A stretch of 64,000 nt of DNA from Amphiura filiformis (lineage: Eukaryota > Echinodermata > Ophiuroidea > Amphilepidida > Amphiuridae), in assembly GCF_039555335.1 (NCBI RefSeq), contig NC_092644.1, forward strand, positions 52,417,365 to 52,481,364, written 5' to 3'. The notes under the pieces were generated by a model that was not told where the DNA came from, ran no database searches, and saw only the letters and a list, made by a program, of their open reading frames with translations. Within the stretch, counting starts at the first letter, position 1. Each line of letters starts with the position of its first letter. The translations under genes and the position numbers were made by a program. Below are positions 6,001 to 21,000 of this stretch, piece by piece.

Positions 6001-9000
6001 TAGATATGATAAAAAAAAATCATTATGATGCCTTATATGGTCAATATATGAAAAAATAAGGCCAATATAATTTTTTTTAAACCAAAAAAACTCTTTTGGA
6101 ATGGAGCCTCAAGATTAAGAAAAAAACAAAACTAAACTTTTTTGGGTGTTTTTTGTTGTTGTTATGATGTACCAAAAATAAATTGTCATCATAATTTTTG
6201 TTTTTTTTACACCAAACCTGTATTTATATATATAATTATAAAGATTCATTGATGTCTTTGCCTTGTATAAAATGTATAAAATGTATAAAATGTATAAAAT
6301 GTATAAAATGTATACTTGTGTGAATTATTACAAAGTTATGGCACTTTTACTAGAGAGTACACATATGCCTTAAGTATAGGTTCCACAACTTATAAGCTCC
6401 CCTAAATACTTTTTAAAATATATCGAAAAATATTTGACAAAATGCAAACGTGTAAAAATGTTTGAGTAGCCGTATTTATTTTACACATATGGACCAAATT
6501 ATAGCGTCACACGCCATTGCGTTCGGTCACAGTGGTTCATTAGAGAGATTGCGAAATTTACGTGAAACGTGACACGGGAACGCGAACGGCAAGCTACATT
6601 AGTCGAAAATCGGTTATTATGCCCTCTAGAGGGTGAAATCTATTGTTAATTGGTCAATCGTGGAATTACCGTAAGGCGATTACGTTGCGGTTGGTAGCAA
6701 AAATGACGTTCCAAAATGACAAAAAAAAACCGGATTATAAAATGCAGAAAAATGTTATGTTTATCATGTTATGAAACGAATCAAAGTATCCTAAGAGAAC
6801 AAGTAGAGTCCGACATGTAATAAAATCCATTTTGGGGGTTAAAATTTGATCTCGTATAGACAAGAAGAAGTGAACAAATTTCGATTTTTTTTTCGACGCG
6901 AATTCGAACGGGCAGATTGCCTATTCATTTGTGTGTAAAAAATGCCGTCCAAAAATCAGCTTCCGAAGAGGCGTTTTAGGCAAGATTGTGTCGTGTTACG
7001 GCATAAATGCGGTATAATTGTCTGTTTGGGACGGGGAACAGAAGTTCGTGCAACGCTATTTTTCGCCTTGCTTTTTCGTTGTGCATTAAACAGCTGTCAA
7101 AGTGTTTTGCTTATGGATACTATTCAGCAAACTCCAAAATGTTTTTAAAACATGATAATGCATGTGTTTTTGGTTTTAGTTAAAACGTTTTGATAACATA
7201 TCGATGTATGTTTATATAAAAATCATGAAAACTCGTGTTATACTGAAAAAATAATACAACATTTTAAGCCAAAATTCGAAATGCTATAGTAAAATATCAT
7301 TTGGCAAACATATTTAAGTGTCTATTGTGTTAGAACGTTTATCAGCAAGTTTAGAACAAAGGGTTTTTTGAATGTTATTAAAACCTTTAATGCCCTTGAC
7401 CCTCACATAACCTTTAACCCGACATTTAACGTTTTCTGTAATATATTTGTGTTTGCTGGGTAGTAATCGAACTAGGCATATTAGATTATCTATTTTCATT
7501 TTGCTTTAGAAAGTAAACAGGGTATTATTTATATGATAATGGAGTTTGTTTCTTGTTATTAGTATAATAGGCCCCATGTCACAGGGGAAGTTGCTCAACT
7601 TCGTCCAAAATTGTCAAAAATGACCAAAGTTGCACAAAGTTGCCTTAAGTTGCCTAAATATTTTGCAAAGTTGCGCAAAGTCGCTTTAAGTTGCTTAAAT
7701 ATTTTGCAAAGTTGCATTAAGTTGCCTAAATATTTTGCAAAGTTGCGCAAAGTTGCTTTAAGTTGCCTAAATATTTTGCAAAGTTGTCCAAAATTGCATT
7801 ATGTTGCCTAAACATTTTGCAAAGTTGCGCAAAGTTGCATTAAGTTGCCGAAACATTTTACAAAGTTGCGGAAAGTTGCATTAAGTTTCCTAAACATTTT
7901 GTAAAGTTGCGCAAAGCTGCCCATATTTATGCAAAGTTGCCCAAAGTTGTGTAAACTTCTCATACAATTACGTCAAGTTGCTGCTGGTTTTGCTGACTCA
8001 CCCCAGAAGATTTTAAACCCCTAAAACCAACCCAAAAACCCCCCCCCCTACCTGCCTACATAGGCTATGCAATATAAATATGTCAAATGGCGTCCTCGAA
8101 ATGTATAAATGGCCCCCTGACTTGCATCACTGTTATTGGAGACTCAACTCTCATGTCAATTGGGATATTCCAGATAATAAAAGACCCCCCCCCCCTTATA
8201 GAGGGCAAATGGTTGTTTTTTTAAATCTGGGATTCCAAATTTGTTTTGCAAAAAATATCTGGAATTCCAGACCAAATCTCCACAAAAAGTATGGAATTCC
8301 CGGCACCTTCCACCAAAACCCTATAGAGGGCAAACTATTTTAAAAAAAAAAAGTCTGGAATTCCAAATTCATTTTGGAAAAAATATCTGGAATTTCAGAC
8401 CCAATCTCCAGAAAAAGTATGGAATTCCGGGCATATTCCACCAGAACCCCTATTGAGGGCAAACTTATTTTTGGGGAAAAGTCTGGAATTCCAAATTCAT
8501 TTTAAAGTAATTTATTTTAATTTTATTTTAATATGTTTATTGCCCGGGTTTATTGCACAAGAAACAAATAAACAAACATCGACAAGATGTGTTGTGCAAA
8601 AAAGGCATATAAGGCCCACGGTTGGACCTTTTAATACACATCAGGGAAGTATACTAGTATTATAGGCCTACAATTGCGAGACAAACACATTTGCAAATAA
8701 GAAATAGGTTATGTTCAAATTGACAAATTTCGTAAACCAGAAATTTAGGCTATTCGTACATCAAACATACTATTTGAAATTGTGTCCTATCAACTTTTAT
8801 AAAACGAGCAGGATTTTTCACTGTTTTATGGAAAATTGTATACGCATTGTATAAGCTATATACACCTAGTATTATAAATATTGAATAATATATTAACAAT
8901 ATAAAACTAAAAGATGATGAACACAACCTTTTTAAACATGTTTAAACAGATCTTATGGCTGATTTTTTGGTACTAAACTTATGAATGATTGATTTTGCCA

Positions 9001-18000: not shown

Positions 18001-21000
18001 GCCTAAAGTCATTTTTGTAATTTTAAGAACAAAGAACAACATGTGGTTCAAGCATACATCAGTTATCTAATATTCCTAATTATTTGGGATTATTCCCTTT
18101 CATTTCATTATCATTTGTAGGCCCTACTTGTACAAATATTGGTGAATAAATATGTTTAAATGCATGCTTGAACCATTAGTATTTTGTACTTTGTTCTCAA
18201 AATTACAAAAAATGACTTGGGTAATTAGCGTAGCAGGCTGACAATATGCTCTAGCAAAGATCAGTAATAGAAGGGTCAGTGCTTTGTGTGGGTAGACCCT
18301 ATCACAGATCATGAAGCTGAAGTCGGTCTACTGTTCTGTGAGAGGCACGCGCCTACCCCCATTGGGAGTTTCATCATTAGGTCAGCCATAGCACAGATCC
18401 TGGAATCCTGGCCACTACATGTAGCAACTAGCTTCAGCTGTAGCTTGTAATAGGCCTATACCACAGGCCCATACGCAGGATTTTTTTTTGGGGGGGCGTT
18501 TTTTTGAAAAGTGGACTTTCTTTCAAAAATTTGGACCTTTTTTGACGAAAAACATGACTTTTTTTTTGCTCGCTACGCTCGCAAATTCTGAAATTTTGGG
18601 ACTTTCTGTACACTTTGGCAAATTTTGGTGTGGGGTGAGCCTCTTCAAAACCCAAAAGTTTTGCGCGCTTGGGTTGGTCTAAGAAATACTGGCATTTTTT
18701 ATCATAGAATTTTAGATCTCTTCAAAGTAGGCTACAAATATGATTATGTACCAATCTGATCAAAATACAACTAAATCAAGAAAATATTGAAAATAAATAG
18801 GATTTCTTTGCACGTAAACTGCACACTTCAGTTTACTATTTCTCATTGCAAAATTATTTTGTACACATATAAGGCCCATGGGTAGATTTACCATAGGGCA
18901 GAGTGGGCACAGGCCCAGGTAATGGGGCCAAAACTGATCACATTGTACCTGTGTACATTTGCGTGACCAAATTAATCTCATATTTGACCATTTTAGCTTT
19001 TTGCATTAATTAGTTCAAATTTTAACAATATTTGGCCAAATTTTTTGCGCGGTTCGTGCGCATTTGTACTATCATAGCCACGGATCCAAATTATCTATTT
19101 CATTTATCCCTGTAAAATCAGATAAACACCCTGATTTGGGACAAATCTAAATTAAGTATAAAATGAAAATTTCCTTGTGCTTGTATTTCATGCGCAATTG
19201 TCCCACCGGGAATGTTTCAAACATTTGCCTCCCAGATACCACACCACTGGAAACAACACTATTAAGTATGTTTGTTATTCTATTTTAAGTGCTTATGTTC
19301 TGTACCTTGTATTAGTAAGGTTTTGAACATTAAGAATCTTGAATCTTGATAAAGGGGTCAAAAAGTTTTGTCTGTCAAAAGAGGGGTCAAAAAAACAAAA
19401 AAGTTTAGCGGTCTATGGGGGGGTCAAAAGTTTAAGGAAAAATTTAAGGAAGACCAGCCCCCTACCAAAGTATTAATGAACACTCCCTATCTCCGGATTG
19501 TTCCGATTAATTTTGATAACTCCAAATTGTTCTGACTAATTTCAACTAACTGCGGATTGTTCCAAATAATATCGATAACTCGGAATAACTACAAATAAAT
19601 ATTGCAATTCCGATAACTCCAATATCGGACCCTGAAATCGGAATTAATACCCTGTCGTGGGGCCTAATATTGGATCCAAAACATAATAATGATAAAATTG
19701 GATACTTTATGCCCAATATTTATTGGTCGAGCTATGAGTTTTAACTCGAGTACGCCTCGTCCAATAATAAAACTCATAGCTTGACCAATAAATGTGGGCT
19801 CAATCGATCTAATTTTATATCAAAGTTGCACAAAGTTCTGCAAAGTCACGTAAAATTTTGCAAAGTTGCACACAGTTCCTCAAAGATGCCTAAACATTTT
19901 GCAAAGTTGCACAAAGTTCCGCAAAGTTGCATAAAATTTTGCAAAGTTGCTCAAAGTTTTGCAAAGTTACATAACATTTTGCAAAGATGCTCAAAGTTGC
20001 GTAAAATTTTGCAAAGTTGCTCAAAGTTACGTAAAATTTTGCAAAAGCTACACAAAATTGTACAAAGTTGCGCAAAGTTCCCCAATGTTAATGTAAAGTT
20101 GCATAAAGTTGCACAAAGTTACTCAATGTTAATGCAAAGTTGCACAAAATTGTCAAAAATTTTGCAAAGTCAAATGACAACTTTGAGCAGTTTTACACAA
20201 TTTTGCGCAACTTTGGTCATTTTTGACAATTTTGGACGAATTTGGGCAACTTCCCCTGTGACATGGGGCCTTATAATATACACCAAGACTTCCTAGGCAT
20301 CCAACACCAAACTCTGTTTAGATTATTTAGACAAATAGCCCCGTGTGAACATAGGCCTATACTCATTTTCCAATAGCCCGCAAAACTCAAATATCGCTAA
20401 TCTGGACTGAATGCTCAGAGCATTATAGATACAGCCAGTCGTATTTGCATATCAATACCGAGGAAAGTAGTTCGATGAAAGAAGATAATCTTCTCTGGTT
20501 CGATGCACCCAAGGTGAATCAATTACCTTTAGATTATTTGTCTCAGCATAGCGCCATCATGATTGCAATTGCGTTTACACGTAGTCTTGGTTCAGACTCT
20601 ATGCGGCTATCACGAACATACTAGGAACGACGAGCGTTAGGACCGACACAAACTGGCTGTGTAGGAGGCTAGTTTGGATGTGAACGGGAATATGACGTTC
20701 TGCCGCAAAATGCAGAAATCCGTATGGCGTTTGCAGTGAACGCCTCTCCGCAATCTCTCTATTATGTAAAATAGAGACCGTTTTATTAAACAGTGTTAAA
20801 AGTTGCATCTGAGTCTATAGGAGTCAGCTCTCAAACAATACAGTAGGCCAGGTCTATTCATATGTTTGTTAAAGAAAACCTGATTGCTATGGAATGGCCT
20901 CTTTTCTTACACCAGGTGTGACTGAACGCAATGACTTGATACGCTATAAATTGATCCACATGTGTAAAACAAATAGGGCTATACATATATTTTTACATTT

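Follow-up and report, generated by a model that had tools for sequence, protein, structure and literature searches.

We examined a window of 64,000 nucleotides from the ophiuroid Amphiura filiformis (assembly GCF_039555335.1, contig NC_092644.1, positions 52,417,365 to 52,481,364 of the forward strand); all positions below are those of this window. Within it, two inverted ends at 7569 and 20271 span 12,703 bp end to end, each adjoined by a minisatellite, with ordinary repeat-laden DNA between the two arrays. A preliminary annotation made from the letters alone, here called the sequence-only reading, had described the whole span as one 12.7-kb mobile unit, either a gutted Polinton/Maverick or a giant non-autonomous element. 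We describe the ends, the arrays, and the interior, and argue that the locus may instead hold a short, gene-less transposon whose array was interrupted.

Paired ends and target site

Aligned without gaps from their outer edges, the two ends matched in inverse orientation at 70 of 74 positions (mismatches at 27, 31, 66, and 71) and at 79 of 90, and a repeat search returned the same pair at 88% over 90 nt. The match of about 75 bp given by the sequence-only reading was thus borne out, as were its opening AG and its shared flanking 6-mer: both ends read AGGCCC, and TATAAT lies flush against each of them (7563–7568 and 20272–20277), with the next outward bases unlike (G versus A). The first 19 nucleotides, AGGCCCCATGTCACAGGGG, were found exactly at 7569–7587 (+) and 20253–20271 (−). 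No further site with up to 3 mismatches was present in the window, where dinucleotide shuffling gave an expectation of 0.01, and a 26-nt version of the end with up to 4 errors recovered the two outer ends and no other place.

Two random 6-mers of the window are identical with a probability of 4.4e-4. We also compared inverted-repeat pairs lying no more than 20 kb apart whose pairing could not be extended outwards, using seeds of 12, 14, and 16 bases. A flush 6-bp match was unique to the 7569/20271 pair (1 of 319, 1 of 117, and 1 of 54 pairs, respectively), while flush 5-bp matches among the other pairs numbered 2, 0, and 0. Being the sole such match, the pair very probably delimits one insertion that generated a 6-bp target site duplication (TSD), unless members of the family strongly prefer a particular target.

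A candidate third end, degenerate and in reverse orientation, was noted at 19650–19665 (AGGCCCCACGACAGGG), at a distance of 155 bp from the left edge of the right array and with 4 errors against an 18-nt end query. It was set aside because such short matches are unspecific; at 5 errors, the query matched 16 places on the forward and 10 on the reverse strand of the window, and 1 to 6 per strand in ten shuffles. Exact-pattern scans of a viral and a genome contig collection yielded no convincing relative of the element. The viral collection contained neither the 19-nt end nor an inner stretch of the terminal inverted repeat (TIR), and held the array pattern in 6 stretches; the genome collection lacked the end and held the array pattern in 2. 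These eight array-pattern loci were considered as relatives and taken as chance on word counts alone, with CAAAGTT occurring 2 to 5 times in each (both strands together). The 7-mer AGGCCCC or GGGGCCT was present in three of the eight (L003, L006, and L007).

Two minisatellites in one orientation

Both ends lead into related CAAAGTTGC minisatellites, detected as tandem repeats at 7625–7981 and 19821–20170, and the higher-order units on the left and right (41 versus 40 bp) are alike in make-up. The same 10-bp rhythm could be read from the end alignment within the TIR itself, as CAAAATTGT, CAAAAATGAC, and CAAAGTTGCA. Allowing up to 1 mismatch, CAAAGTTGC occurred 17 times forward and never in reverse at the left (7569–8100), and 18 times forward and twice in reverse at the right (19700–20271). 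Comparison of the left array with the right one scored 173 in direct and 29 in mirror orientation; a second comparison gave 184 and 32, where shuffles reached 30 at most, and another scoring gave 148.5 and 57.5. In a large element whose TIRs carried the minisatellites, mirrored arrays would be expected. Here the two arrays instead repeat each other in direct orientation, and most of the right array therefore lies outside the right inverted repeat. This amends the earlier description of the TIRs as minisatellite-bearing: related arrays do adjoin both ends, but with their shared orientation only a small part of the right one belongs to the inverted repeat.

Reverse units were confined to the last 95 bp, with the orientation flipping at about 20176. 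Since the flip lies just 95 bp from the right end, 19821–20176 looks like an inner portion of the left arm. At the flip, an inverse match of 36 bp connects the final forward units with the right arm, and the predicted minimum-energy structure has a hairpin pairing 20135–20170 with 20180–20215 (z of −2.57, with 1 of 200 shuffles equally stable and a much weaker centroid structure). Mirroring of the array was limited to the short reverse stretch at 20177–20215. The two end pieces, at 413 and 451 bp, together amount to 864 bp.

Interior and surrounding window

The stop-free pieces overlapping 7994–19820 that reached 52 amino acids or more, 57 in all, were scanned against Pfam with curated cut-offs, and none of them scored above its cut-off. 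At that level, the statement of the sequence-only reading that no genes remain was upheld, and genes for protein-primed DNA polymerase (PolB), integrase, ATPase, and capsid proteins were among those without a match. The top interior score (Dynactin_p22, E of 0.0014, 19 bits, cut-off 25.2) fell on a piece translating the right minisatellite, whose repeated units most likely produced it as an artefact; the best score off the minisatellite was DUF1774 (E of 0.019, 15.7 bits against a cut-off of 23.5).

The interior resembles the rest of the window in repeat coverage: 26% of it has similar sequence elsewhere in the window, versus 23, 31, and 20% for three stretches of the flanks. GC content was likewise 35.4% versus 35.2, 36.1, and 37.5%. 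The observed/expected CpG ratio at 7982–19820 was 0.58, below that of the three flanks (0.95, 0.79, and 0.70). Six inverted-repeat structures besides the outer ends lie inside the interior (Table 1), together with a 128-bp tandem repeat at 8226–8503. The decayed element among them may be mariner-like, to judge from its TACAGGGTGTATC ends.

Table 1. Features of the locus, in window positions
Feature	Position	Strand	Remarks
Left TSD copy, TATAAT	7563–7568	.	Sole flush 6-bp match in the inverted-repeat pairs examined
Left TIR, starting AGGCCCCATGTCACAGGGG	7569–7642	+	70/74 identical to right TIR
Left minisatellite, 10-bp CAAAGTTGCN units in a 41-bp higher-order unit	7625–7981	+	Degenerate inwards from ~7902
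Interior, ordinary repeat-laden DNA, 11.84 kb	7982–19820	.	No Pfam match above cut-off
Separate palindromic structure	9704–10321	.	~80% identical to its own reverse complement; relative at 59666–60136
Separate inverted-repeat structure	11670–12963	.	170-bp arms, 95% identical
Separate inverted-repeat structure	14581–15207	.	50-bp arms (86%); TA near each edge, read from the sequence
Decayed element	15477–16608	.	Inverse relative at 26163–27479, 86% and 91% identical in two pieces
Separate palindromic structure	17976–18247	.	
Small palindromic structure	19692–19818	.	Adjoins right array
Right minisatellite, 40-bp higher-order unit	19821 to about 20176	+	Oriented as the left one
Right arm: ~20 bp of reverse-orientation array, then right TIR (20198–20271)	20177–20271	−	
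Right TSD copy, TATAAT	20272–20277	.	

Two tandem duplications elsewhere in the window are connected by position or by sequence with these interior structures. At 25615–26089, a 235-bp unit is present in two copies (99.6–100% identical) just before the inverse relative of the decayed element, and at 59611–59960, a 173-bp unit in two copies (98% matches) is related to the palindrome at 9704–10321. A further minisatellite at 33387–33823, of about 51/106 bp, matches itself in both orientations because its units hold the palindrome-like AACATTGGGCCAATGTT. Two copies of a sequence of about 492 bp, in direct orientation with 99.8% identity and about 0.9 kb between them (1840–2330 and 3238–3729), could be the young long terminal repeats of a small element of that class. 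Outside the 12.7-kb span, 10 stop-free pieces were scanned against Pfam and 3 had matches, all on the reverse strand: an F5/8 type C domain at 38437–38850 (E of 2.1e-11), MFS_1 at 56519–57196 (E of 1.4e-11), and a reverse transcriptase, RVT_1, at 41693–42061 (E of 2.9e-6, 27.6 bits, under the cut-off of 29.6).

A possible short interrupted element and its competitors

We favor, with a probability of roughly one half, a short (~0.86 kb), gene-less DNA transposon resembling a miniature inverted-repeat transposable element (MITE), the array of which was interrupted by 11.8 kb of ordinary DNA. Such an element would begin with a TIR and continue as a one-way minisatellite of 10-bp units through nearly all of its body; beyond a point where the orientation flips, a short right arm would carry the second TIR. 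In its favor are the unique flush 6-bp match, the direct orientation and like higher-order units of the arrays, the closeness of the flip to the right end, the resemblance of the interior to the rest of the window, and the lack of a Pfam match above cut-off. The order at the locus (TIR, forward array, interior, forward array, flip, TIR) would then be that of an asymmetric short element with its array cut open. A transposase acting in trans would have made a staggered 6-bp cut at TATAAT and inserted the element there. The TIR is the probable source of the array, as the two share a 10-bp rhythm, and slippage or unequal exchange could have extended it; its units may have offered extra binding sites to the transposase, by analogy with Galileo. 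Later, or already in the source copy, repeat-carrying DNA of 11.8 kb would have interrupted the array and split the element into its 413- and 451-bp pieces. The sequence-only reading was supported as to a paired-end insertion with a 6-bp target duplication, but its claim of a single mobile element of that length lacks support, because an interrupted element of ~0.86 kb gives the same anatomy more simply.

FB/NOF and the sea-urchin TU elements are foldback elements, and pairs of FB can carry large DNA. We considered a foldback element, with mirrored arrays in long inverted repeats, and rejected it on the array scores (29 mirror versus 173 direct). Short gene-less elements linked to tandem arrays are known, and MITEs with internal or TIR-linked arrays include miDNA4 of Xenopus tropicalis, Xmix of X. 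laevis, and the bivalve CvA/pearl elements (PMC9659126). Compared by description, the favored element would share with them its short, non-autonomous, inverted-repeat, and array-linked character and would differ in sequence, in its 6-bp TSD, in the interruption by 11.8 kb, and in being a single copy (PMC9659126). TIRs with a flush TSD are present here, and coding capacity is absent at the level of the Pfam scan of pieces of at least 52 amino acids; the orientation of the arrays fits a body made of one array, but 11.8 kb interrupts that body. In Galileo, of the P superfamily in Drosophila, terminal tandem repeats have been proposed as extra transposase-binding sites (PMC3573991). As described there, Galileo is alike in its tandem repeats of the terminal region and in the unequal repeat number of its ends and differs in its 7-bp target, TIRs of ~890–1,260 bp (in the copies quoted), and transposase remnants in some of its copies (PMC3573991). 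The Tetris foldback elements also have tandem repeats near their termini and non-coding, variable middles, but with the arrays inside the inverted repeats and a TSD of 8–10 bp, compared with mostly direct arrays and 6 bp here (PMC4079207).

Several observations weigh against an interrupted short element. The left array fades towards 7981 like a natural edge, while the right begins sharply at 19821. If the arrays were halves of one, the last units of the left array should resemble the first units of the right. Instead, a comparison of overlapping blocks leaned towards the start-with-start similarity expected of two parallel copies in 3 of 3 settings (p from 0.0 to 0.024), and one of separate blocks did so at p ≤ 0.05 in 13 of 45 settings, or in 9 of 45 with an order-keeping cyclic control. 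The unrotated alignment of the arrays ranked third of 35 rotations, two of which beat the true order. These tests do not decide between serial and parallel arrays, because the outcome shifts with the block register, and they lean against a split array. At the inner junctions, we found neither ends nor a target duplication for an 11.8-kb insert: direct matches of at least 7 bases there numbered 11, of which 10 were array units, and 40 control pairs gave 0 to 12 (3 of 40 with at least 11). The decayed element at 15477–16608 diverges by 9–14% from its relative at 26163–27479, and the TIRs by 4 of 74 positions (interval 1.5–13%), and the interior might therefore equal or exceed the outer insertion in age; such dating is indecisive because the interval on 4 of 74 is wide. 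Finally, the element is known from a single copy.

Part of this evidence suits a composite resembling a macrotransposon, in which two short elements of the same orientation, 11–12 kb apart, lost their inner ends and a transposase, acting on the left end of one and the right end of the other, moved the whole 12.7 kb, duplicating TATAAT. Both arrays run forward and are in part collinear from start to start, the 6-bp match is flush at both ends, and the interior looks like pre-existing host DNA, possibly as old as the ends. Against this stand the two rare events it requires, the lack of a known second copy of the 12.7-kb unit, and the finding that no inner TIR could be recognized beside either array when the 26-nt end was sought with up to 4 errors; we regard it as unlikely, if the foremost of the competitors. 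We would put slightly less weight on a giant non-autonomous element of this composite kind, in which a transposase producing a 6-bp TSD would have moved 12.7 kb of ordinary DNA lying between same-way arrays and one pair of inverted ends. Equally doubtful is a pair of truncated copies from one family that inserted independently of each other, 12 kb apart and facing the same way, with the TATAAT pair a coincidence or a target preference. The interior would then need no explanation, the arrays are collinear rather than serial in some tests, and the left array decays inwards as a separate copy might; but the two copies would need to have lost precisely complementary ends, and the identical flush 6-mer, with its chance of 4.4e-4 between random 6-mers of the window (which a target preference would raise), has no counterpart in any other inverted-repeat pair examined.

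An artefact is less probable again. An assembly join through the CAAAGTTGC array could have introduced an unrelated 11.8 kb into a short element, and both inner breaks do fall at array edges, which in minisatellites are typical misjoin points; the window, however, has no Ns or ambiguous bases. Least credible of all is a 12.7-kb Polinton/Maverick that was gutted, or a non-autonomous element of that length derived from one. Vertebrate Mavericks are described with a 6-bp TSD, repeated end motifs, and, in intact elements, lengths of 12,723–24,620 bp and TIRs of 46–1,447 bp (mean about 400 bp) (PMC8097293). The locus shares the 6-bp TSD and the terminal AG with them, its 12,703 bp come near the range of lengths, and its TIR of 74–90 bp falls within the range for TIRs, though short against the mean (PMC8097293). 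It differs in having no Pfam-detectable gene in any of the 57 pieces, unmirrored arrays, and AGGCCC ends in place of a repeated motif such as the (AGT)2, (AG)3, or (AC)3A given for vertebrates, from which invertebrate ends may differ (PMC8097293). These same points tell against the Polinton suggested by the sequence-only reading: a 6-bp TSD is a Maverick/Polinton feature, yet the end motif and gene content of that group are not found here.

In the ordinary case, the locus would add another gene-less transposon family that spreads a minisatellite. As a caution, TIRs and a TSD paired over a long range should be taken for a giant element only once the orientation of adjoining arrays has been checked. 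If the composite were true, a small repeat-bearing transposon would have mobilized 12 kb of host DNA, which would be a route to the shuffling of repeats and genes on a large scale.

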